Source: an uncultured Collinsella sp. (GTDB lineage Bacteria > Actinomycetota > Coriobacteriia > Coriobacteriales > Coriobacteriaceae). From it: DNA of 64,000 bases. A program made the position numbers and the translations under genes. Below the pieces are notes generated by a model. It searched no databases, was not told where the DNA came from, and worked only from the letters and a program-made list of their open reading frames with translations. The stretch spans positions 1 through 64,000 of the forward strand of contig CALULJ010000004.1 in the NCBI GenBank assembly GCA_944321445.1. The letters run 5' to 3'. Shown piece after piece: positions 38,722 through 51,437 of the stretch. The stretch's first letter is position 1. Every line of letters begins with the position of its first letter.

Positions 38722-39012
38722 CTAAATGCTACTCAAATAACTGAGGCTATCTTTGTCGGTGTCGAGCGCGAAGTAGAAGCTCAGGTCGGCGAGGTAATAC
38801 TTCTGCTCTCCCTGGAGCGACTTGCGCGACTTCATGTCGAAGCGTGTGCATTTGGGGTAGTCGAGCGCCTTGGGGAAGCCGCCCTCGAAGATGCAATGGT
38901 CGAGCTTCGCCACGGGATTGGGATCGACCGCCTGCCCGAGGAAGCGCTTCATCTCCCGGTACTCCTTGAAGCTGAGCGTCTGGACCTCGAACTCCACGTA
39001 GCGCCCCGTCAT
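38722..39012 (-). pseudogene. internally deleted AAA/DUF4143 ATPase remnant
   Basis: A 96-residue frame matches two separated parts of the intact ATPase at 51442-52710. TGRYVEFEVQTLSFKEYREM through EGGFPKALDYPK is joined directly to CTRFDMKSRKSLQGEQKYYL, with about 110 residues missing between. It ends early after ALDTDKDS. The close match to the 51-kb copy suggests recombination between paralogues. It abuts the stop codon of the next ATPase gene. Confidence 0.85.
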
Positions 39013-40235
39013 TCAAATAGGTCTTTGTCCTCCGCCATGAAATCGATGAGATTGAGATGCCTCACACCCTCGCGCTCCTGAAGCAACGGATCGAGTGTGA
39101 AGAGGTAGCGCGGGTAGCCATCGCGAATATAGCCGAAGGGCCGGTATTCGCGATCTTCGGTCGCGCGGTCCGCGATGCTCATCGCCACCTGGATGTAGGC
39201 GTACGCGCTGCGCCGGCGAGCAATGAAATCGCATTCGAGCTTCCCGATCCTCCCAACGGAAAGTCTGTAGTCCTTGGCGCGAAGATGCAGGTAGAGCGCA
39301 TTCTCGAGCAAGGGTCCGTAGTTGAGGCGAACGTCGACATTGCGCGCGAAATAGATGCCTGGATCCGCAAGATAGTACTTCTCCTCGCCCCGCAGGGACT
39401 TGCGCGACTTGAGGTCGAAACGGGAACAACGGCAGAGGACCTTAGCATCGACCAGCGCCTGGATGTACGAGGCGATAGTCCTGCGCTGCACACGGATCTT
39501 CTCGACGTTAGTGAAATGGTCAACCAGGTTCGTCAGGCTCGTCGGCGCGCCGAAGTTGTTGATGAGATACGTCATGACCCGGTTGAAGGTGTCGACGTGA
39601 CGGATCTTCTTCCGACCCTTGATGTCCTTCTCGATGATCTGGTTCACCACGTCCTCGATGTAGCGCGCCTTCGCGTCGGGATCATCGTATGCGAGCGACC
39701 GCGGGAAGCCTCCGAAGCGCAGATAGTCGTCGAATTCGCGGCGCACGTCGCTGGCCTCCTTGCCAAGATGGCGCTTCATTCCCAGATACTCGGCAAACGA
39801 GAGCGGGAACATCTCGAACTCGACGTAACGGCCCGTCAGCTTGGTCATGAGCTCGCCGGAGAGCAGATATGAATTCGATCCGGTGATGAATATTGAGAAG
39901 CCTCCGTCCGCGTTGTACGCGTTGACGACCTCCTCGTATCCCTCGACGTTTTGCACCTCGTCAATAAAGAGGTACTTGAAGTCGTCGTCCAGCAGCCGCT
40001 TCTCGATTGCCGCCTCAAGTTGGTCTGGGGTCTTGATCGACCGGTTGCCCCGCTTCTCCAGATCGAGGTAGACGATGTCCTTATCGGGAACCCCGCGCTC
40101 CCCAAGCTCCTCGATGACCGTCTCCATGAGGCTGGATTTGCCGCACCGCCGTATGCCCGTGATGACCTTGATGATGTCGTCATCGTAGAACGGTCGGATC
40201 TTCTTGAGGTACTGCTCGCGACGATACAGCTTCAT
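39009..40235 (-). CDS. AAA-type ATPase with DUF4143 domain
   Basis: A 408-residue ATP-binding protein of the AAA_14/DUF4143 family. Walker A is GIRRCGKS (residues 27-34), Walker B is YLFIDEVQN, the sensor is IFITGSNSYLLSGEL, then a winged-helix region (FNRVMTYLINNFGAPTSLTN). The C-terminal DUF4143 nuclease-like fold has LECDF but IQVA where active PD-(D/E)XK enzymes have EVK. The family is abundant in gut bacteria and its function is unsettled; location here fits a defence or addiction role. Repeat R copy 3 lies directly upstream with a TTAACGCAC/GTGCGTTAA inverted pair. Confidence 0.9.
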   Translation of the reverse strand: MKLYRREQYLKKIRPFYDDDIIKVITGIRRCGKSSLMETVIEELGERGVPDKDIVYLDLEKRGNRSIKTPDQLEAAIEKRLLDDDFKYLFIDEVQNVEGYEEVVNAYNADGGFSIFITGSNSYLLSGELMTKLTGRYVEFEMFPLSFAEYLGMKRHLGKEASDVRREFDDYLRFGGFPRSLAYDDPDAKARYIEDVVNQIIEKDIKGRKKIRHVDTFNRVMTYLINNFGAPTSLTNLVDHFTNVEKIRVQRRTIASYIQALVDAKVLCRCSRFDLKSRKSLRGEEKYYLADPGIYFARNVDVRLNYGPLLENALYLHLRAKDYRLSVGRIGKLECDFIARRRSAYAYIQVAMSIADRATEDREYRPFGYIRDGYPRYLFTLDPLLQEREGVRHLNLIDFMAEDKDLFE

Positions 40236-40474: not shown

Positions 40475-41983
40475 TCAGATGTCAGACGCTCTTCCGGAGC
40501 AATCTGAGTCACCGTCTTCCTCACTTTCCGACGCATCAACCAAATCCTGGCTTTGATATTGCACGCTTAGCCAATCTATCACCCATGATTTAAAATGAGA
40601 ACGCTCAAGCTCGCGCCTGATTTGTGTTGGGCACATGCCAAACAGTCGCCATAGAATGACATAGCAAAGCAATGCGGTCCCCATCGTTAGTCGATATAAA
40701 TTAGATGGGTCGACCGCGGCGGCCGCAGGCCCATGCGAGTATGTGTTTCGAGCAACCTGTTGTTCAGACACAAACTTATCTATATCAGGGACAAGCCACC
40801 CGACAACATCTTTCTGCCTGTCCATAAGTTCATTTATCAGACGCTTTGCGCCTTTTGAATTCTGTCCTATTCGAGACTGGATCCATGCCACAAATTCTTC
40901 TGGCATTCCTTCGGTTCGCTTCAAGAGTTCTTTTCGATTTTGCTTAAACACAGCTTTTGGCCAAGATTGTAGGTCAGCTCTGTATCTTGAAATCGCTTCC
41001 AAAGCCTGAGATGCGGACACGCACTGCAACTCAACTGGCATTTTCCAGTCATAGGTAAGTATTGAAACAATTAAGTCGCCGGCGCGTTTGAGAAGCAGGT
41101 AGTCTTCCTTGTCTCTCCTATCGATGCCATAGTCGAACCAGCTAGAAAGATAGTTGCCGATTTCTCTTTCTAGTGCGCGATAAGGGAACGGCATCGCACG
41201 TATAGCATTTTTTGACGGAGTGGGAGAATCAATCAATGGTGCGTAATATTGAATTGCGCTCTCTTCACCATCAAAATACAAAGCAAACCTTTGGATGGCT
41301 GCATGAAAGCCCATGCACAAGCTAAGGAACTTTGACAGTTTGACGGCGAAATCACGAGCCTCCTCGAGAGTCTTTCCGGCTGAGAAACATACTTTCAAAC
41401 AGCATTGGTGACGAAAAGTCATCTCGTTTACATTCAGCCCGGGAATGATGTACTTGCTGAACAGCGTAATACTGCATTGCTCACTCTCTAGCAAGACCAC
41501 GGCCTCGTCATTTTCTTTTTTATATTCGAGCGCTCTGAAGCGCATATTATCTTGATCATCGGAATCAAAAGTCATGCAATAAGCTGATTTCCCGTACCAG
41601 TCAGCCAGATTCCTTACCTCGATATCCACCCTATTAATTACGTTAGACGGGTCGAATTCACGGCATCCCTTTGCTGCCATAAGATAATCTGCACGGATGA
41701 CCTGATGGACCATTCCCGGATAGCGCGTTTCACCGCCACTGTACACAGCGTTTCCAAGCACCAACGCATACCCGTCTTGAGAGAACCCGTATAAGTACTC
41801 CGCAGCAGAGAGTTCTTTTTCACCGTTTATGACAACGCCTGGGGAACCGAGCAGCTTTCCGCAGGGGATGTCGAGAACAACCCCCTCGTCGCCAAGGTTT
41901 GCCGTCCCTTGAACCGCGTTGTCCCCACGCGCCTCTTCCCAGCTCTTTCCCCATACTCCCTGGGTAAAACTTGAAGGAATCAT
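40475..41983 (-). CDS. ApeA-like HEPN anti-phage protein
   Basis: A 502-residue protein. The N-terminal half (GVWGKSWEEARGDNAVQGTA, VLDIPCGKLLG) resembles the ApeA N-terminal beta domain. The C-terminal half is a helical HEPN domain with the RNase signature Rx4H as RNTYSH (about 411-416). ApeA proteins are single-gene abortive-infection effectors that cleave RNA when triggered. ATG 41983 has GGAGGG seven bases upstream, so the six extra 5' codons are excluded. The DUF4143 ATPase gene 38 bases upstream on the same strand could be co-transcribed. Family assignment is by layout and motif only. Confidence 0.7.
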   Translation of the reverse strand: MIPSSFTQGVWGKSWEEARGDNAVQGTANLGDEGVVLDIPCGKLLGSPGVVINGEKELSAAEYLYGFSQDGYALVLGNAVYSGGETRYPGMVHQVIRADYLMAAKGCREFDPSNVINRVDIEVRNLADWYGKSAYCMTFDSDDQDNMRFRALEYKKENDEAVVLLESEQCSITLFSKYIIPGLNVNEMTFRHQCCLKVCFSAGKTLEEARDFAVKLSKFLSLCMGFHAAIQRFALYFDGEESAIQYYAPLIDSPTPSKNAIRAMPFPYRALEREIGNYLSSWFDYGIDRRDKEDYLLLKRAGDLIVSILTYDWKMPVELQCVSASQALEAISRYRADLQSWPKAVFKQNRKELLKRTEGMPEEFVAWIQSRIGQNSKGAKRLINELMDRQKDVVGWLVPDIDKFVSEQQVARNTYSHGPAAAAVDPSNLYRLTMGTALLCYVILWRLFGMCPTQIRRELERSHFKSWVIDWLSVQYQSQDLVDASESEEDGDSDCSGRASDI

Positions 41984-42021
41984 AACATGCCCTCCAGTCA
42001 ATCAACGTAGGCTCTCTCGAC

Positions 42022-43323
42022 CTATCCCCACAGCCCTGTGTTCGACATCGCGTACAGCGGGACGTTCCTCATCCAGTCCTGCTCACGATAGCCCGACAGG
42101 CTGAAGCGAACGGAATTAATCTCCGGATGGGATTCCTTGAATGCTCGTAGACTCTTGGCACGCAGGTTTTCTTCGGCCTTTACCTCTATGGCATACACTC
42201 CGTTTGCCTTCTGCACCAGAAAGTCGATCTCTCCCGAAGAGTTTTCAGCGGACCAGTAATAAGGCGTGAGCCCGCAGTCCGAAACGAGCTGCTGGCAGAC
42301 GTACTGCTCGGTAAGCGAACCCTTGAACTCCTCGAAGATCCCGCTGCCACCGACGACCGTCTCTTTGCCCAACTGTGCCATGGCACCCAGCAGGCCAACA
42401 TCCACCAAAAAGAGCTTGAATGCAGTGTCATCCGCATAGGGGCTCAATGGAATCCCAGGCTTCGAGATTCTGCGGACAAGCGTTGTGATACCTGCCTGCG
42501 TGAGCCATGTGATGCCCGACTGGTAGTTCCGTGCCCGCGCCCCCTGCGCGATGTGGCTGAACACGAACTTTTTGTTTTCTCGACCGAGATGGGACGGGAT
42601 CGACCGCCACGCGGCGAGCGCGTACTCAGTCTCGACCCTGCCGAGGTGCTTCGAGATGTCGCGCTCGTAGCCGCGCAGAATATCGAGCTGCACCTCGCGC
42701 GCATCCTCCAAGAGACCTCGCTCAAGAAAGGCGCTCACCGCCTCAGGCATGCCCCCGACGTAGTAGTACTGACGAAGGAGCGGAACGATCCTGCTTGAGA
42801 AGCTGTTGATAAGGCTCGCGTCGCCAGCGTCGATGAGGTCACAGAGCGGCCGATTCCCCGTCGCAGCGAGGAACTCCCGAAAGCTAAGGGGATAGAGATC
42901 GAGCGTATTCACCTTCCCCACGGGATACCCGCTGCCCTCGTGCACAGTGATGCCCAAAAGCGAGCCGGCCGCTGCCACCACGTACCCGGGTGCGTCCTCG
43001 CAGAAGTACTTGAGGCTCGTGAGCGCCTTCGGGCACGCCTGAATCTCGTCGAGGACGATGAGGGTGCCTCCCTCGGTCACGACCTCCCCCGTCTCGAACT
43101 GGATGGCGGATACAATGCGCGGAATATCGTAGCCCAGCTCAAACTGCTCACGCATCCTGGGATTGTCATCGAGATTCACGTATGCAACGTTCTCGAACTG
43201 CGTTTTTCCAAATTCTTTAAGCAGCCAAGTCTTTCCAACCTGACGCGCACCGTTGAGAATAAGCGGCTTGCGACGGAGCCTGTTCTTCCAGACAATAAGC
43301 TCATCCATGAGAAATCGTTCCAT
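42022..43323 (-). CDS. AAA-type ATPase with DUF4143 domain
   Basis: A 433-residue protein with Walker A GARQVGKT (residues 25-32), Walker B TLIVLDEIQACP, an arginine-finger-like region, and a C-terminal DUF4143 with an intact PD-(D/E)XK pattern (GEIDFLV ... YAIEVKAEENLRAKSL). It therefore could be a nuclease, unlike the paralogues at 39009 and 51442 where EVK is lost. It belongs to a different subgroup (about 20-25% similar by eye). A perfect 17-bp inverted repeat sits 24 bases before its ATG. The ApeA-like gene follows. Confidence 0.9.
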   Translation of the reverse strand: MERFLMDELIVWKNRLRRKPLILNGARQVGKTWLLKEFGKTQFENVAYVNLDDNPRMREQFELGYDIPRIVSAIQFETGEVVTEGGTLIVLDEIQACPKALTSLKYFCEDAPGYVVAAAGSLLGITVHEGSGYPVGKVNTLDLYPLSFREFLAATGNRPLCDLIDAGDASLINSFSSRIVPLLRQYYYVGGMPEAVSAFLERGLLEDAREVQLDILRGYERDISKHLGRVETEYALAAWRSIPSHLGRENKKFVFSHIAQGARARNYQSGITWLTQAGITTLVRRISKPGIPLSPYADDTAFKLFLVDVGLLGAMAQLGKETVVGGSGIFEEFKGSLTEQYVCQQLVSDCGLTPYYWSAENSSGEIDFLVQKANGVYAIEVKAEENLRAKSLRAFKESHPEINSVRFSLSGYREQDWMRNVPLYAMSNTGLWG

Positions 43324-43566: not shown

Positions 43567-44244
43567 CTATATCCCAACAAGGCTGTTCTCATCGAGCAGG
43601 AAGTCGAGCACGCTCATCGTGACCACACCCTGCTCGTCGCGCAGGGGCTTCACCACGTCGCGCACAAGCACAACCTTCTTAAAGCTGTCATTGATGCCGA
43701 GCAGGGAGGCCTTCTCCTGTGCGGCCTCCTCAGGAGTCCTCATCTCCAACGCCGATTGGATGTAGACGCGGTCGGAGCCTCTGTTGGCGACAAAGTCGAC
43801 CTCAAGCTGCTTGCGAACGTCCCTGCCCTCCTCGCGGACGCGCTTCTCGACCACGCCAACGTCCACGGAGTACCCGCGCGCCCTGAGCTCGTTGTAGACC
43901 ACGTTCTCCATGATGTGGCTCTCCTCAATCTGCCGGAAGCCGAGCCGCGCGTTTCGGAGCCCCGCGTCCTCGAAGTAGTATTTCAGGGGGCTGCCGATGT
44001 AGCCCCTCCCCTTCACGTCGTAGCGCCGCGCCTCCTCGATGACGAAGGCGTCCTCAAGGTAGCCTATATAGCTGGAAATCGTGTTCGAGGAGATCTTGGA
44101 ATGAAGCACGCTCCTGAACGTGTTCTCGAGCTTGCCCGGGTTCGTGAGCGTCCCGATGCCGGAGGCGAGCACGTTTTTACGAGGTGCGCACCTCGCTTTG
44201 ATTCCCAATTGACTTCTATTGAGCATTTTTGCCGTATGCGGCAT
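43567..44244 (-). pseudogene. truncated AAA/DUF4143 ATPase (C-terminal half only)
   Basis: Residues from about 25 onward (FRSVLHSKISSNTISSYIGY to FLLDENSLVGI) form the winged-helix and DUF4143 parts of an ATPase, with EVDFVANRGSDRVYIQSALE at the nuclease-like site. The P-loop half is absent; the first about 24 residues (MPHTAKMLNRSQLG) are unrelated. It is a 5'-deleted remnant. Confidence 0.8.
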
Positions 44245-44636
44245 TTCTTCTCAATAGGGCAGTTCATACCATAATTGACGCGCAGTTAGCGGAGGACACG
44301 CGTCTACAAGATGCTCCGCGACGAGATGGCACGTGTACCGAGAGCACGGGAGCATACGATCCGCCGACGAGGTCGACGAGGCGCTCGCCTGGTCGGTCGA
44401 CTTCCTCGCGAGGGAGTTTCCGCTGCGCGCGGCGAGGAGGGGCCCTCTGACGTCGAGCGAGAGGACGCCCTCGTCTTCGGAATGTCGCGGAGGTAGGGGA
44501 ACGCCCTCGCCGCTGTCAACGCCAACGGAGCCGCCGTGTCGCACAGGCTCTGTGTCGAGTCTATGGAACCCACGTGATAGACGGCCCACAGCTCCGCAGC
44601 GTCCCCCTCCCCGCCTCAATCGGGTATACTTCAGTC
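44245..44636. other. non-coding gap with unidentified remnant
   Basis: About 390 bases without a supported gene. One plus-strand frame reads YREHGSIRSADEVDEALAWS and VDFLAREFPLRAARRG, which looks protein-like, but has no start and quickly becomes low-complexity. I treat it as a decayed gene fragment of unknown family. Confidence 0.4.
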
Positions 44637-44700
44637 ATTGTGAAAAGCCCTAGGGCTTTTAGCGGCTGCGGGTACCTGTACCTTCAGCCGCATTTTTCTT
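44637..44700 (+). ncRNA. candidate small RNA upstream of the Abi_2/AbiF-like gene
   Basis: An 18-base perfect palindrome AAAAGCCCTAGGGCTTTT (44643-44660) is followed by a second stem GCGGCTG/CAGCCGC (44662-44668/44685-44691) whose loop contains GGTACCTGTACC, then ATTTTT. A TATACT -10-like box (44625-44630) precedes it. The Abi gene starts 17 bases later. AbiF-type HEPN proteins are known to be paired with an adjacent structured RNA acting as antitoxin, and this element is in the right place and has terminator-like form. Confidence 0.55.
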
Positions 44701-44716
44701 ACCTTTTGGAGCCGAT

Positions 44717-45862
44717 ATGGAAGATCCCGGCACCGCGACAACAAAGGAACGGCCGCTCATCGACGCCGCCCAGCAGGTCCGCCACCTCAAGGACCGAGGG
44801 GTCCGCTTCGAGCTGACGGACGAGCGGGAGGCCGAGCGATTCCTGCGGGAGAGCAACTTCTTCTTCAAGGTGAAGGCGTTCGCGAAGTGCTTCTCCCGCT
44901 ACACCAACCCCGGCTCGGAGCGCTTCGGCTCCTATATCAACCTCGACTTCGCCTACCTCGCCGAGCTCACGAGGCTCGACCACCACCTCCGCGAGACGGT
45001 CCTCTCCCTCACGCTCGACATCGAGCACTACATGAAGGTCGAGCTCAACAGGATGATCATGGACGCGGGAGACGATCCCTACGAGCTCATGGCGTCCTTC
45101 TTCGACTCCGAGCGCGAGAGGAAGGTCAGAGTGCTCGAGAAGAGGGTCGACCTTTGCTCCATTCGGCCGAAGGCCCCGGTGGTCAGAAGCCTGTCCGGAG
45201 ACCTGGCGGCATCGGACGCCAAATCCGTCATCTCCGCCCTCGCCTCCCTGCCGCACCTGGCATCGGACGCGCTCGGCGGAATAGACCCCGACCACACCGA
45301 GAGGAGCCTCGCCGGGCTGGGCGGGTCCTCCTACACCCGTGGGCTCGTCGAGAAGTACGGGGGCCCCGGGCACATGGCGGTCTGGAGCTACCTCGAGCTC
45401 GCGTCCTTCGGGGGCGTCATCTCGCTCTACAAGTACTACGTCTTCGAGCGGCGAGCGATGCAGGACGAGGAGGCAGTAAAGGGCCTACTCTTCCCGACGA
45501 AGGCGCTGAGGAACGCCGCCGCCCACAACGGGAACATGCTCAGCACGCTCGGCTCGAAACTGAAGAAACCCGTCGGCTCCATCTCGAAGATGGCGATCGA
45601 GGAGCTGGGGATCGACCGCGAACTCGTGTCGCTCGCCAAAAGGGCGCCCATCGTCCACGACTTCACCGCCCTCGCCCTCTGCTACATGCACCTGGTCAAG
45701 AGCGAGGACGCGAGAGGGGACGCCGCAGAGAAGCTCCTAACCCTGCGCAGGCGATTCATGGCGCACATAGACTACTTCTCCAAGCAGGGCGAGCTGAAGA
45801 ACGGCCTGACCATGCTCGGCGAGGTCATGAACAGGGCGGCCGGCCGGCTCTCGCGCCCATAG
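44717..45862 (+). CDS. Abi_2 / AbiF-like HEPN abortive infection protein
   Basis: A 381-residue protein of the Abi_2 family. The N-terminal half has the family core LRESNFFFKVKAFAKCFSRY, INLDFAYLAELTRLDHHLRE and LTLDIEHYMKVELNRMI. The HEPN RNase signature is Arg265-His270 (RNAAAH). A helical C-terminus follows. Such proteins act as toxic RNases in phage defence and are ancestral-type relatives of Cas13 HEPN effectors. A GGAG ribosome site precedes ATG 44717. The structured element at 44637-44700 may be its RNA antitoxin, and a terminator follows at 45967. Confidence 0.85.
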   Translation: MEDPGTATTKERPLIDAAQQVRHLKDRGVRFELTDEREAERFLRESNFFFKVKAFAKCFSRYTNPGSERFGSYINLDFAYLAELTRLDHHLRETVLSLTLDIEHYMKVELNRMIMDAGDDPYELMASFFDSERERKVRVLEKRVDLCSIRPKAPVVRSLSGDLAASDAKSVISALASLPHLASDALGGIDPDHTERSLAGLGGSSYTRGLVEKYGGPGHMAVWSYLELASFGGVISLYKYYVFERRAMQDEEAVKGLLFPTKALRNAAAHNGNMLSTLGSKLKKPVGSISKMAIEELGIDRELVSLAKRAPIVHDFTALALCYMHLVKSEDARGDAAEKLLTLRRRFMAHIDYFSKQGELKNGLTMLGEVMNRAAGRLSRP

Positions 45863-45966
45863 TCAACGCCATCGTCGCCCTTCGATTTCCCCCTGAAGCT
45901 CGTTGACATCTGGACGCCAAATCGAACAGAATGCTCTTAGATGTAAAAGCCGTTTACGGTTTTGTA

Positions 45967-46003
45967 AGAGCGGGGCCGCCTGGCGGAACCGCTCTAGTTT
46001 TTT
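45967..46003 (+). terminator. terminator after the Abi gene
   Basis: AGAGCGG (45967-45973) pairs with CCGCTCT (45989-45995), with an inner GCCGCC/GGCGGA contribution, followed by AGTTTTTT. Confidence 0.85.
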
Positions 46004-46078: not shown

Positions 46079-46230
46079 GTCCGAGTAAGTCCGAGTAGAT
46101 TCGAGTAGATCCGAGTAGCCCGGCAGCAACCCGGCTACCCACTGCGTAAAAACAGCAGCTCAGACGCGTGACATGCCGTCACATGAAGCGGCGAGTTCGG
46201 GTAAGAGCAAGTCCGAGTGGTCAGAGTAGG
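46079..46230. repeat. 10-bp-phased repeat array, left flank of the GmrSD-like pair
   Basis: Four consecutive 10-bp units (GTCCGAGTAA, GTCCGAGTAG, ATTCGAGTAG, ATCCGAGTAG; 46079-46118). About 80 bases later a second cluster at 46195-46230 (GGTAAGAGCA, AGTCCGAGTG, GTCAGAGTAG). A GTGAC-ATGCC-GTCAC inverted pair lies between. The same arrangement recurs at 51275-51437. The surrounding gap 45863-46731 holds the Abi terminator and a possible small ORF. Confidence 0.85.
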
Positions 46231-46495
46231 GCCCGACTTCCCCTCTCGGCCGGGTGCAGAGCCGACAAGGCGGACTCCAGAGTCAACCCAATAGAGACGA
46301 GCCCAGGCCGGCGGACGCCGGTTATCCCTCGTGCGCGCAGCCTGTCACGGGACCCGCTTCCCCCACAAGGGCCGCGATGCTTTCCCGGCTTCTTTCGGGC
46401 TCGGCCGCCCCCGCTCAGAGCGGTGCCGGCGACGCTCTGTTGATGTGCAATAAGAAATGGTCCGAACGAGCACCGACTTCTGAGCACCGCGCGTA

Positions 46496-46731: not shown

Positions 46732-48609
46732 ATGCCGTATAACGAGAGCCGGGATGAGATGATCAAGAACGTAAGTGACCCCTCCGTAGCCAGCATCCTA
46801 TCAACCGATGCGCTGAAGGTCTACAACATACCCCGTTACCAGCGTGAGTACACATGGGGCCAGCGAGACTGGGCGAACCTCTACGACGACGTCTTCGACA
46901 ATGACCCAGGCTACTTCCTCGGATCCATCATCGTCATCCAGGGCGAGATCGACCCGAAGACCAACATCGTGGACTTCGAGGTCATCGACGGCCAGCAGAG
47001 GCTTACTACCATCAGCCTGCTACTCGCAGCGCTGTACGCCCGCATCAACGAGCACCCAGACGCCATAGACGAGGACATGCAGCTCGACGACGTAAGGCCG
47101 CTGCGCAACAGGCTCGTCCTCAAGTCAAACAAGGGCATGACGCGCGTGGTGCCTCAGGTTCAGAACCACAACCAGGACGACTACCGCTGGGTCCTCAAGG
47201 AACGCGTCGGACTCGCAGTCGTGATGCAGCGGCCCAAGTACCACGGCGTGCGCAAGATGTCGAAGGCATTCGAGTACTTCTATGACCGGCTCGGCGAGGA
47301 GATCGCCGGCATGGGTGATGACGATGCCGTGCGCACCCTGCTCGACAAGAGCAGGGTGCTCTGCTCGGCTGTGCTCGTGCAGATTAACGTAGACAGCCAC
47401 GCCGACGCCTACACGCTGTTCGCGTCGCTGAACAACCGAGGCGTACCCCTCTCCGCCGTGGACCTAATCAAGAACACCCTGCTTGCGAAGGTGGCCGACG
47501 CCGATGGTGACGAGCTCGACTACTACTTCGAGCAATGGCAGGAGGTGCTTCGTAACCTCGGCGACGACTACGCCACCCAGGAGCGCTTCTTCCGCCAGAA
47601 CTACGACGCCTTCCGCCGCGACGTGAACAAGCCCTTCGTGCAGGAGGGCGGCGCACAGCTGCCGCTCGGCTCGGTGGCCACCCGCTCGAACCTGCTCAAA
47701 ATCTACGAAAAGAGGATCGGCCAAGACCCCGGCGCGCTCGGGGTGCTCGACGAGCTCATCGGCAACTCCGCCATCTATTCGCAAATCATCGGGATTGACC
47801 GCGAGGGCATGGACGCCGGGCTCGTACGCCAGCTCGTGGAGCTTGCACGCGCTCAGGGCGTCCCCTCCTACCTGATGCTCCTCTACCTCATGAAGAGAAG
47901 GTCGGAGCTCGACCTGGACGACAGCCTCATCGCCGGAATCGCCGCGCTGCTGGTCAGGTTCTTTGTGAGGCGCAACATAACCGACACGCCGCCCACCCGC
48001 GATCTGGAGCGCCTTTTCATCAGCATATGCGAGGGCATCGAAGACGACCGGATGGAGGGCGTAGACGTCGCTCGCTACATCAAGCGGAGGCTTGTCGACG
48101 TTTCGTCAAGCGACGTGACCTTCAAGGAGCGGCTTGAGGGACCGATATACGACGTGAACCCGGATATGACGCGCTACATCCTCACCGTGCTCGCGGAGCC
48201 GAGCGTCACCAAGGAGATGAAGGGGCTCTGGGAGCGCTACCCGTCAGGTAACTACGTGTGGACCATCGAGCACGTGTTCCCCCAGGGCGAGAACATCCCA
48301 GCGAGCTGGGTGGACATGATCGGTGGTGGCGACAAGGCGAAGGCCCAGGAGATTCAGGCTGCATACGTCCACACCCTCGGCAACCTGACCATCACCGGCT
48401 ACAACTCGAAGCTGAGCAACATGCCCTTCATCGAGAAACGCGACCGCAAGGACTCAAACGGCTCGAACGTCGGGTACCGCAACGGACTCAACCTCAACGA
48501 CGACCTCGTGAGCGTGGACAGCTGGACGAAGGAGCAGATTGAGGCGAGAACCGAGAAGCTCGTGAAGCTCGCATTGAAGGCATTCACGTTCGACGACATC
48601 GAGTTTTAG
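46732..48609 (+). CDS. DUF262-DUF1524 protein (GmrSD-like type IV restriction family)
   Basis: A 625-residue single-chain GmrS+GmrD-like protein. The N-terminal DUF262 (ParB/sulfiredoxin-like NTPase) has NIPRYQREYTWG (about 32-43) and EVIDGQQRLTT (about 81-91). The C-terminal DUF1524 His-Me/HNH nuclease has WTIEHVFPQ (His about 513) and HTLGNLTITGYNSKLSN. Known members cleave modified phage DNA. ATG 46732 is given, but MIKNVSD at 46759 is equally plausible; neither has a strong ribosome site. The next gene starts 14 bases downstream, indicating a two-gene unit flanked by phased repeats. Confidence 0.85.
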   Translation: MPYNESRDEMIKNVSDPSVASILSTDALKVYNIPRYQREYTWGQRDWANLYDDVFDNDPGYFLGSIIVIQGEIDPKTNIVDFEVIDGQQRLTTISLLLAALYARINEHPDAIDEDMQLDDVRPLRNRLVLKSNKGMTRVVPQVQNHNQDDYRWVLKERVGLAVVMQRPKYHGVRKMSKAFEYFYDRLGEEIAGMGDDDAVRTLLDKSRVLCSAVLVQINVDSHADAYTLFASLNNRGVPLSAVDLIKNTLLAKVADADGDELDYYFEQWQEVLRNLGDDYATQERFFRQNYDAFRRDVNKPFVQEGGAQLPLGSVATRSNLLKIYEKRIGQDPGALGVLDELIGNSAIYSQIIGIDREGMDAGLVRQLVELARAQGVPSYLMLLYLMKRRSELDLDDSLIAGIAALLVRFFVRRNITDTPPTRDLERLFISICEGIEDDRMEGVDVARYIKRRLVDVSSSDVTFKERLEGPIYDVNPDMTRYILTVLAEPSVTKEMKGLWERYPSGNYVWTIEHVFPQGENIPASWVDMIGGGDKAKAQEIQAAYVHTLGNLTITGYNSKLSNMPFIEKRDRKDSNGSNVGYRNGLNLNDDLVSVDSWTKEQIEARTEKLVKLALKAFTFDDIEF

Positions 48610-48623
48610 GGGGCATAGCTGGA

Positions 48624-51059
48624 ATGAACAATACGGTCGCAACTGCTTTCTTCATGGATGACGACAGGCCGCTCATCCAATACGAGCTCGCATTCCAAGA
48701 GAAGCCGAAGCTCCTCATGGCTGAACCCAGTTCTTTCGGAAGCTCATCGGGTGCCAGAGAGGTTTATGCTGGCGTGACCGAGACACTTGAGGACAGAATC
48801 GAGTGGGAACCACGCGTAGACGAGGCGGACAAGCTCGACTACATCGTCGCAGTAAGCAGCGGCGTCCTTTCCGGCCTTATTGATGTCTTCTACGTGAGCG
48901 AGCTCTCCCTCGACCGCGCAAGCGAGTGGGGCAGGGACAGGATCGAGAAGGTGGTGATGAAGGTCGCCCGCGTGGAAGGTTACTCCGGGGATGACCTAAG
49001 CGACGCGATAAAGACGCTCGAGAAGAACCACCCGCTTGCAGCTGATGGCAACACCAACGACTTCGGCGGAGGATTGCAGCACCACCTTCGCGACTTCTCG
49101 CACCATTTCAGCATCGGCGGCCTGTTCTTCTCGATATTCACCCAGTTCACTGGGCTTGTCGTGGGAACCGACAAGGCGGGCATGCTGCACGTCGCTCCCG
49201 TCCCCAAGTCGCACAGGGCCTGCATCGGAAAGAACTTCCAGGAGAAGATCGCCTTTGGAACCATCGGCTGGTTCTTCCACATGGTAAGCGACATGGCAGG
49301 CTCCAGCGGTGCGCTCATGGGCGGCACCGGCATTCCCGGCCCGCTCGTATCGTTCATGAAGGAGCTCTCGGCGCTCCCGTTCTTCAAAGAGTCCGGCGAC
49401 GGAGACATGGGCTTCCGTCTGTGGGTGACCAAGCTCTTCAACGGAACCTTGCTTGCCGATCACGACGAGAACGGCAGGATAATCAAGGACAGCGTCAAGA
49501 AGTTCGACCTGCGCACCGAGGTCGGCATACTCGGCGAGGTCGGAAGGCAGACCATCCCGATGCTCATAAACCAGTGCGTCGTGCGCGGGTTCTACTTCTG
49601 TAGGAGGCTTGCCCGCGAGGTCCGGGACCTTGGGATACGCTGCATTGGCGACCTCGAGCGAATCGCCCCCGAGGACATTCTTCCCTGGGGCACCCCCGCC
49701 ATGCGCCGCATGGTCACCGTGTCGAGCGGCGTCTTCACCGGCGTGGACATCGCCGACGCCGCCGTGAGGGCCATCATGGGCAAGGACCCCGTCACGTTTT
49801 TCCTACGCGTGAACTACGTGGGCGTGGCGACTTTCGTGATCGCCTGCGTCGTAGACGTAAACGCCACGCTCAAAGACAGGGAGTTGGAAGAGGGCGAGAG
49901 CCCGGAGGAGGCATACGAGCACGGGCTTTCCGACCTTGGCTGTCTCAAGCTCGACTTTATGCAGGCGCGAATGCTGCACTCAATCGAATATGCCATCGTC
50001 GCCCACGACATCACAGAAGAGAAGCGCCCAAAGCGCGCCGAGAGGAAGCGCGCGTGGCTCAGGGAATGGAGCGAGATGGTCGTCGAAACGGTCGACCTTG
50101 TTTGGGCAGCAAACGCCGGGTACTTCCTGGGCAGTGATGCCATATACGACTCCGTCGCGACACGGCTCGATAACTGCGCGAACAGCTCCTGGCTGTGGCT
50201 CGTCGCGATGGAAGCAAAGCGGTTCAAGCCCTACGTTCCGCTACATGGCGACAACGACAAGCTCTACAAGGGGCTCAAGCTCGGCAGCGACTACCTCGGC
50301 GAGGTGTTCTGCGAGCGCCAGAGCGTCGTGGGAAAGAAGGACCTCACGAAGCTAGACAAAGCGGTTAACAACGCACGCGGTAAGCTTGACGGTGCCGTGA
50401 CAAAACGTGTCGTTGGAGCTGCGGGAACCGTGGTTGTCGTGGCAGCGACTGGTGGTCTCGCGTTCTACTTCGCACCCGCCATAGCACCGACATTGGCAGC
50501 GGCTCTGGGGCTTGAGGCGGCCGCGCTGCACGGAGCTGCTCTCACGAGTGCCAGCCTTGCATTTCTTGGCGGCGGCGCTATCGCCGCCGGTGGCGCCGGC
50601 ATGGCAGGTGGGACTATGCTCATAGCCGGCGGCGGCGCGCTGCTCGGAGCCGTCGGTGGATCCGGCGTCTCTGCCGCAACGTCGATGGCACTTGTGACGA
50701 ACGGGAGCTATGTGCTGGACGAGTGCGCCAAGCTCGTAGCCTTCTGCGAGGAAGTGCTTATCGGACGGTACGGCGACCTTAACTCCGTCGCTGAAATCCA
50801 TACCGTGCTGAACCAGCGGATAGTCGAGCTTGAAGTTGAGATTGAAGCAGTAAAACGCAGGGTGCCTGACAATGAGGTTCCCGAGGACGATGACGATAAG
50901 ACAGACGACAAGGAAGATATCAGCCCAAAGAGGATGATCAAGATCATGAACCGAAGCAGAAAGTACATGAGACGCAGCAGCGACGAGCTCGCCAAGGCTC
51001 TAAAGACAGCGACCAAGAAGATGAGCGCCCTGCCAGCTGTTGGTAAGATGGGGTCATGA
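48624..51059 (+). CDS. uncharacterised 811-residue protein with glycine-rich hydrophobic region
   Basis: I do not recognise this family with confidence. It has a mostly helical body with LQHHLRDFSHHFSIGGLFFS and TQFTGLVVGTDKAGML (about 150-185), and FGTIGWFFHMVSDMAGSSGA followed by GTGIPGPLVSFMKELSALPF (about 212-252). A glycine/alanine-rich hydrophobic stretch at about 593-690 contains AATGGLAFYFAPAIAPTLAA and GGGAIAAGGAGMAGGTMLIA and could insert in membranes. The tail is acidic (NEVPEDDDDKTDDKED) then basic. It starts 14 bases after the DUF262-DUF1524 gene (GGGGG ribosome site), so the two are almost certainly co-expressed. A membrane-acting effector or partner is inferred from context only. 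Confidence 0.7.
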   Translation: MNNTVATAFFMDDDRPLIQYELAFQEKPKLLMAEPSSFGSSSGAREVYAGVTETLEDRIEWEPRVDEADKLDYIVAVSSGVLSGLIDVFYVSELSLDRASEWGRDRIEKVVMKVARVEGYSGDDLSDAIKTLEKNHPLAADGNTNDFGGGLQHHLRDFSHHFSIGGLFFSIFTQFTGLVVGTDKAGMLHVAPVPKSHRACIGKNFQEKIAFGTIGWFFHMVSDMAGSSGALMGGTGIPGPLVSFMKELSALPFFKESGDGDMGFRLWVTKLFNGTLLADHDENGRIIKDSVKKFDLRTEVGILGEVGRQTIPMLINQCVVRGFYFCRRLAREVRDLGIRCIGDLERIAPEDILPWGTPAMRRMVTVSSGVFTGVDIADAAVRAIMGKDPVTFFLRVNYVGVATFVIACVVDVNATLKDRELEEGESPEEAYEHGLSDLGCLKLDFMQARMLHSIEYAIVAHDITEEKRPKRAERKRAWLREWSEMVVETVDLVWAANAGYFLGSDAIYDSVATRLDNCANSSWLWLVAMEAKRFKPYVPLHGDNDKLYKGLKLGSDYLGEVFCERQSVVGKKDLTKLDKAVNNARGKLDGAVTKRVVGAAGTVVVVAATGGLAFYFAPAIAPTLAAALGLEAAALHGAALTSASLAFLGGGAIAAGGAGMAGGTMLIAGGGALLGAVGGSGVSAATSMALVTNGSYVLDECAKLVAFCEEVLIGRYGDLNSVAEIHTVLNQRIVELEVEIEAVKRRVPDNEVPEDDDDKTDDKEDISPKRMIKIMNRSRKYMRRSSDELAKALKTATKKMSALPAVGKMGS

Positions 51060-51274: not shown

Positions 51275-51437
51275 TTCCGAGTAGATGAGAGTAAGTCCGA
51301 GTAGGTTAGTGTGGATAAGGGTAGCCAGCGCACATCCCGACCACCATCAGAATATAAGCCCGCAGTTCATCTCTATGACATGCCCTCCCGCTAAGCAATT
51401 GGCGCAGGTAAGAGCAGGTCCGAGTAGGTAAGAGCAA
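51275..51437. repeat. 10-bp-phased repeat array, right flank of the GmrSD-like pair
   Basis: First cluster 51275-51324 with 10-bp periodicity (TCCGAGTAG, ATGAGAGTAA, GTCCGAGTAG, GTTAGTGTGG, ATAAGGGTAG). Second cluster 51406-51437 (GGTAAGAGCA, GGTCCGAGTA, GGTAAGAGCA). GACATGCC lies between, as in the left copy. The gap 51060-51441 contains no supported gene. Confidence 0.85.

Follow-up and report, generated by a model that had tools for sequence, protein, structure and literature searches.

A two-hairpin RNA beside AbiF-like HEPN proteins of Coriobacteriia as a candidate antitoxin

In an uncultured Collinsella sp., a compact structured element stands directly in front of an Abi_2 gene, raising the question of whether it encodes an RNA that neutralizes the protein encoded behind it, and how such a pair would relate to the AbiF systems already described. 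The DNA analyzed here, hereafter the window, is a stretch of 64,000 nt (contig C4; the genome spans 2.36 Mb and is closest to Collinsella and other gut Coriobacteriia), and the order at the locus is a TATACT box, two hairpins, a T-run and an intact Abi_2 gene, interpreted in the original prediction as an AbiF-like HEPN toxin with a candidate RNA antitoxin. The features of the locus are:

44625–44630 (+): TATACT, −10 box of the RNA A promoter (direct reading; −35 weak)
44637–44697 (+): RNA A, two hairpins and a U-run, about 60 nt (fold, covariance models R1/R2, covariation)
44643–44660 (+): hairpin 1, AAAAGCCCTAGGGCTTTT, a perfect 18-base palindrome
44662–44691 (+): hairpin 2, with a 1x1 mismatch and a CCUG tetraloop (fold, covariation)
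44693–44697 (+): terminator T-run, T5 (direct reading)
44717–45862 (+): Abi_2 (AbiD/F-type) HEPN protein, 381 aa, predicted RNase toxin (Pfam, PADLOC, AlphaFold2, PDB fold match)
45509–45526 (+): codons of R265-N-A-A-A-H270, HEPN catalytic motif (alignment)
45869–45940 (+): C-terminal remnant of a second Abi_2 gene, PSSPFDFPLKLVDIWTPNRTECS and stop, 23 codons (translation)
45903–45932 (+): RNA C promoter, TTGACA-18-CAGAAT, inside the toxin remnant
45940–46002 (+): RNA C, sister two-hairpin RNA with a U-run, its toxin gone (R3, covariation)

The HEPN protein and its relation to canonical AbiF

The Abi_2 ORF is intact, with GGAG at 44708–44711, and its product matches Pfam Abi_2 (PF07751) at 50.9 bits against a cut-off of 25.6; the best PADLOC label is AbiD. 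Arg265 and His270, singled out in the original prediction, lie at exactly those positions, and R265, N266 and H270 of the RNxxxH motif (RNAAAH) are invariant across 18 aligned proteins. The equivalent Arg/His pair is required for the activity of PbAbiF and AbiFCd (PMC12373285). The AlphaFold2 model (pLDDT 83.4, pTM 0.82) has a sole standout match in the PDB, 8vz6, which is PbAbiF with its ncRNA (Foldseek probability 1.00, TM 0.43/0.53, E 4.7e-3; Z 13.7 over 269 residues), followed by Cas13d (Z 6.5–7.7), with unrelated rows below 5.7. This link comes from the fold search only, phmmer of the protein against PDB sequences having returned no match. Phage and plasmid collections contained distant Abi_2 relatives only, whose identity reaches at most 28% across most of the protein length and 39% when just the N-terminal third is considered. 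The Pfam match, the invariant motif and the fold match to PbAbiF thus bear out the AbiF-like assignment, and the 381-aa protein is a probable RNA-cutting toxin and kin to the ancestor of Cas13.

The described pairs PbAbiF–AbiFr (8vz6) and AbiFCd–RCd22 of Clostridioides difficile share with this locus the Abi_2-superfamily HEPN fold, the RNxxxH motif, and a small structured RNA with one promoter and a terminator just 5′ of the toxin ORF. They differ from it in both partners: the window RNA belongs to another family, with two hairpins, no UCAAAU bulge and no RF03085 match, whereas the window protein carries an extra middle segment of about 60 residues and sits on a separate branch (100/100). At the window locus RF03085 gave no match at E ≤ 10, likewise in the window's own genome, and an Rfam search of the locus at the same threshold returned chance matches only. 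The positive controls were detected (phiC2 at 37.6 bits, and four Coriobacteriia genomes above cut-off, one of the same genus), and two of these four, L201 and L203, have a canonical AbiF ORF downstream of the match, as do the weaker matches at L206–L208. RF03085 matches at L202, L204 and L205 have no detectable AbiF gene beside them; solitary RNAs may occur in this known family too.

The tree places the window protein in an A clade (100/99) that joins B (100/100), A and B group with the shorter C proteins, and the canonical RF03085-linked AbiF proteins fall on one side of a 100/100 branch. Judged from sequence, the window protein is a lineage separate from canonical AbiF, including the AbiF of its own class, and the two-hairpin RNA family is absent from Rfam. 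To our knowledge, Rfam catalogues only one RNA family, RF03085, for AbiF-type HEPN proteins. The original prediction is thus supported in placing a structured RNA next to the gene, given the covariation and the fact that no full-length relative recovered lacks the RNA; identity with the reported abiF RNA is not supported, since RF03085 does not match.

The RNA upstream of the toxin gene

Most of the elements first read from the letters were recovered: the 18-base palindrome is perfect at 44643–44660, and the TATACT box and T-run lie at 44625–44630 and 44693–44697. The second hairpin likewise exists at 44662–44691, except that its supposedly palindromic loop, GGTACCTGTACC, is only a near-palindrome in which two central bases break the symmetry. 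Hairpin 1 has a conserved A/U base, a covarying upper stem and a variable loop, and hairpin 2 together with the T-run is an intrinsic terminator as well. The folding energy of the RNA A stretch is −28.8 kcal/mol, against a mean of −17.9 for shuffled sequences (z −3.8; 0 of 200 shuffles as good). The 5′ end is placed near 44637 by the −10 box, and R1 matches 44638–44696 at 91.3 bits. The terminator ends 19 nt 5′ of the toxin start codon; since the GGAG and the ATG at 44717 follow directly after it, there is no space for a separate toxin promoter.

The same hairpins stand at an unchanged distance upstream of homologues that are 32–94% identical at the protein level, in Collinsella, Olsenella, Atopobiaceae, Thermophilibacter and Paraeggerthella, and TATACT or a close variant precedes the RNA in these homologues, again at an unchanged distance. 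The covariance model R1 found 26 distinct RNA A copies, in which both sides had changed in 10 of 19 pairs (52 cells); 99.0% of cells pair, a value that none of 500 shuffles reached and that falls to about 50% once the partners are slid. The stems change and only a loop of 3–5 nt varies freely, while there is hardly any variation in the CCUG loop, in the A/U base of hairpin 1 or in UUGUGA, the 5′ segment left unpaired. Such recurrence upstream of homologues with compensatory changes is far beyond chance. A covariance model from the upstream regions of homologues had been suggested as the check, and absence of the hairpins from close homologues as the refutation; with the model built and the hairpins both present and covarying, the idea survived. 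We rejected RNA A as a small-peptide gene, as the frame is interrupted by length differences of 1 nt and 13 nt among homologues and the compensatory changes preserve pairs, not codons.

A more divergent version of RNA A, type B, occurs at L013, L031 and L064. At L048 (2397–2468), an RNA A variant has a hairpin 1 that is 13 nt longer, and the toxin is split by frameshifts. A phylum-wide RNA search of 396 genomes gave no convincing type A copy outside Coriobacteriia: strong matches end at the class, and the residual ones (E 3e-4 to 0.01) lacked an Abi_2 neighbor and were about as many as chance predicts for 396 genomes. Calibration of the models R1–R3 was short. Scans of viral contigs found neither toxin nor RNA.

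Sister RNAs at the 3′ end of shorter toxins

Shorter Abi_2 relatives of about 330 aa have no RNA A upstream; weak R2 matches instead lie immediately 3′ of their stop codons. A model of these 3′ elements (R3, in which hairpin 1 is not included as structure) defines type C, and in the 2.36 Mb genome it has three strong matches, which stand 3′ of the genome's three Abi_2 genes, one at each; the following match has an E value of 0.04. Because these sites were among the seeds of the model, what is informative is that no others occur. Among 111 R3 matches examined from 298 Coriobacteriia genomes, 74 share a contig with an Abi_2 match, and in all 74 the RNA is on the Abi_2 strand, at the toxin's 3′ end in all but a few. 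There are one or two copies per locus, some in tandem. Both hairpins covary (8 of 18 pairs, with 95.6% of cells pairing), and R3 also detects RNA A; the A–C cross-scores are moderate (16–33 bits) and the sequences suggest that the two types form one superfamily.

Type C RNAs also appear to carry promoters of their own, embedded in the coding end of the toxin. Scored against TTGACA/TATAAT with 15–18 nt spacing and an end 5–10 nt before the start of the RNA model, sigma-70 promoters reached at least 9 of 12 at all of 16 distinct type C loci except L104 (score 8, poor −35); L137 has TTTACA as its −35. The −35 mostly falls within the last ten or so toxin codons and is read in two frames, R-L-T and L-V/I/F-D-x-W. 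In R-L-T tails, the Leu codon of the −35 is TTG in seven of seven tested, a codon that makes up roughly 3–9% of Leu codons in these genes. With a promoter in the toxin's last codons, the type C RNA can be made independently of toxin transcription. The downstream element as a mere terminator was rejected, as its genome-wide specificity and the embedded promoter speak against that reading.

The window has a type C copy of its own behind the 381-aa gene (RNA C, R3 50.2 bits, E 1.6e-8 genome-wide), one of the three strong matches in the genome and an element that the original prediction did not mention. Its promoter lies inside PSSPFDFPLKLVDIWTPNRTECS. This peptide is similar to the C-termini of complete type C toxins (L158, ending YFDFIMKLVDIWCPKRA before the stop; L159, ending YFDFLWKLVDTWLPRQA) and, on this resemblance, is what is left of a second toxin directly behind the first; the corresponding place at L034 reads TTGACG-18-CAGAAT. 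RNA C is present behind the toxin at L034, L035, L037 and L042, and absent at L033, L036, L038 and more distant relatives, and this patchiness makes it a neighbor rather than a fixed part of the A system.

Antitoxin action, its alternatives and the surroundings of the locus

The RNAs outlast their toxins. At 39 type A/B RNA loci, all matched by the RNA model (counts include near-copies and derive from one sampling of genomes), the toxin is intact at 15 and broken at 8, and no cognate toxin is present at 16, so that 24 of the 39 upstream-type loci have an RNA with a broken or missing toxin. Conversely, the protein search recovered 14 full-length A/B relatives, and all 14 keep the RNA. Among 37 type C matches counted as without a toxin on the contig, 28 have no detectable toxin in the fetched region and some do have a toxin or toxin piece there; several type C loci retain just the promoter-bearing toxin tail. 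Loss of the toxin with retention of the RNA is the pattern expected of an antitoxin. The solitary RNAs probably persist as protection against incoming toxin copies, though they could also reflect some function of the RNA besides antitoxin action, and their number makes protection by orphan RNA antitoxins directly testable.

We consider it likely that the locus is a pair of RNA antitoxin and HEPN-RNase toxin of the AbiF kind (type III-like). From the TATACT promoter, a short two-hairpin RNA would be transcribed as far as its terminator, 19 nt ahead of the toxin's start codon, toxin would arise from occasional read-through only, and the RNA would exceed the toxin mRNA. By homology with AbiFr on PbAbiF and RCd22 on the AbiF of C. 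difficile, the folded RNA would bind the AbiF-like HEPN dimer and block the RNxxxH active site, and a drop in RNA, for example upon phage transcription shut-off, would free the toxin to cut RNA and stop growth. The sister types would do so from different sides, A and B from upstream of 380-aa toxins and C from downstream of toxins of about 330 aa; independence of the type C RNA from the toxin's 5′ end, and the survival of both types beyond the toxin, imply an RNA acting in trans. Several observations count against this pairing. (i) Because the RF03085 motif is missing from the RNA, the contact by which PbAbiF is known to be inhibited cannot be carried over. (ii) It is a single two-hairpin unit instead of a tandem array. 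(iii) At L034, one of the 15 loci with an intact toxin, an insertion sequence lies between RNA A and the intact toxin ORF. (iv) The superfamily link between A and C is built on the moderate cross-scores given above. The transposase ORF of the L034 insertion sequence (1172–2443) is ISL3-like by eye.

The layout of promoter, RNA, terminator and RNase toxin recalls type III systems (ToxIN/AbiQ, TenpIN, CptIN) and is found at 44625–44717 and at homologues, the promoter being predicted; by analogy with those systems, the RNA is predicted to block the RNase directly, which the 3′ position of the sister RNA, the uneven decay and the lack of antisense pairing support indirectly. Unlike them, the window protein has a HEPN rather than a ToxN fold, there is no tandem repeat array, and the sister group, type C, carries its RNA downstream of the toxin, whereas a 2016 review gives the upstream order for all type III systems (PMC5086642).

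Lactococcal AbiD/AbiD1 offers a precedent for a different use of such hairpins: the PADLOC label is AbiD, and AbiD1 has a structured 5′ UTR and a short, prematurely terminated transcript (PMC12373285), although the AbiD1 leader is described as acting on translation, as a switch to which a phage protein binds. The hairpins could accordingly be an attenuator or sensor of their own downstream toxin gene with no antitoxin role, and the RNA A terminator, directly 5′ of the toxin, must indeed lower toxin transcription. We nevertheless regard a purely cis-acting leader as unlikely, because the sister RNA is encoded behind its toxin under a separate promoter, RNAs survive at loci that have no toxin, and the L034 insertion severs the cis link while both parts are intact; the asymmetry of decay, the 3′ position and the separate promoters together favor a trans-acting RNA antitoxin. 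Far less probable still is that the elements are ordinary terminators or intergenic repeats without a specific tie to the toxin, as might be supposed from the hairpin and T-run that end both RNAs and from the many solitary copies: type C has only three strong matches in the 2.36 Mb, all beside Abi_2 (with the caveat that these sites were among the seeds), linkage is on the same strand in 74 of 74 cases, both hairpins covary and the promoter distance is fixed.

Type I control, in which the RNA would repress by pairing with the toxin mRNA rather than by binding protein, fits a short structured RNA adjoining a toxin gene, yet we give it a similarly slight chance. The RNA is encoded on the toxin's strand, and antisense pairing with the toxin start region was rejected as no better than shuffled (12 pairs, z −0.8 to +2.2). 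Least credible of all is a Cas13-like guide that steers the HEPN RNase to targets. Cas13 is thought to derive from AbiF-type HEPN proteins (PMC12737573, PMC12165695), and the window protein shares the HEPN fold with Cas13d and Cas13an, with a Z of 7.7 to Cas13d. However, the window has no CRISPR array, no spacer and one HEPN domain per chain, and the RNA alignment lacks a variable spacer, with hardly any change in UUGUGA, the CCUG loop or the A/U base.

Beyond the antitoxin pair, we tentatively propose, at slightly under even confidence, that Coriobacteriia harbor an undescribed branch of RNA-neutralized HEPN toxins. In this branch the RNA gene would primarily belong at the 3′ end, driven by a strong promoter set within the final codons of the toxin; a single relocation would have brought it to the 5′ leader in the window clade, and solitary copies would be retained as immunity against incoming toxin-carrying elements. 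If true, a second RNA family and two gene orders within one clade would make the pairing of protein and RNA more flexible than known, and the second family would offer a natural test set for how RNAs hold a HEPN active site. The promoter of an RNA antitoxin within the coding end of its toxin would depart from the textbook type III operon.

The Abi_2 ORF is surrounded by defense-like genes, namely an ApeA-type HEPN gene, AAA_14/DUF4143 ATPases and a GmrSD-like gene. The ApeA-type gene (40475–42001) adjoins three AAA_14/DUF4143 genes on the minus strand (39009–40235, 42022–43323 and 43567–44244, the last truncated), making these surroundings dense. Directly 3′ of the GmrSD-like gene (46732–48609) lies an ORF for 811 aa (48624–51059, plus strand) with no Pfam match and a PADLOC match to BnzB (2e-45). 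Repeats of GTCCGAGTAG occur at 46080–46240 and 51295–51427, three in the window against 0.13 expected, and several related loci have comparable repeats on their downstream side. At L036, L040 and L042, a tyrosine integrase and a small ORF ending in DALIFGMSRR stand upstream of RNA A, the window copy of the small ORF is decayed, and the Abi_2/RNA module looks like the cargo of a small integrative element. At L098, L100, L102 and L106, about 100–200 nt separate a solitary RNA A from an AAA_14-type ATPase gene that converges on it; the surroundings differ among these loci, and the two may travel as a pair.
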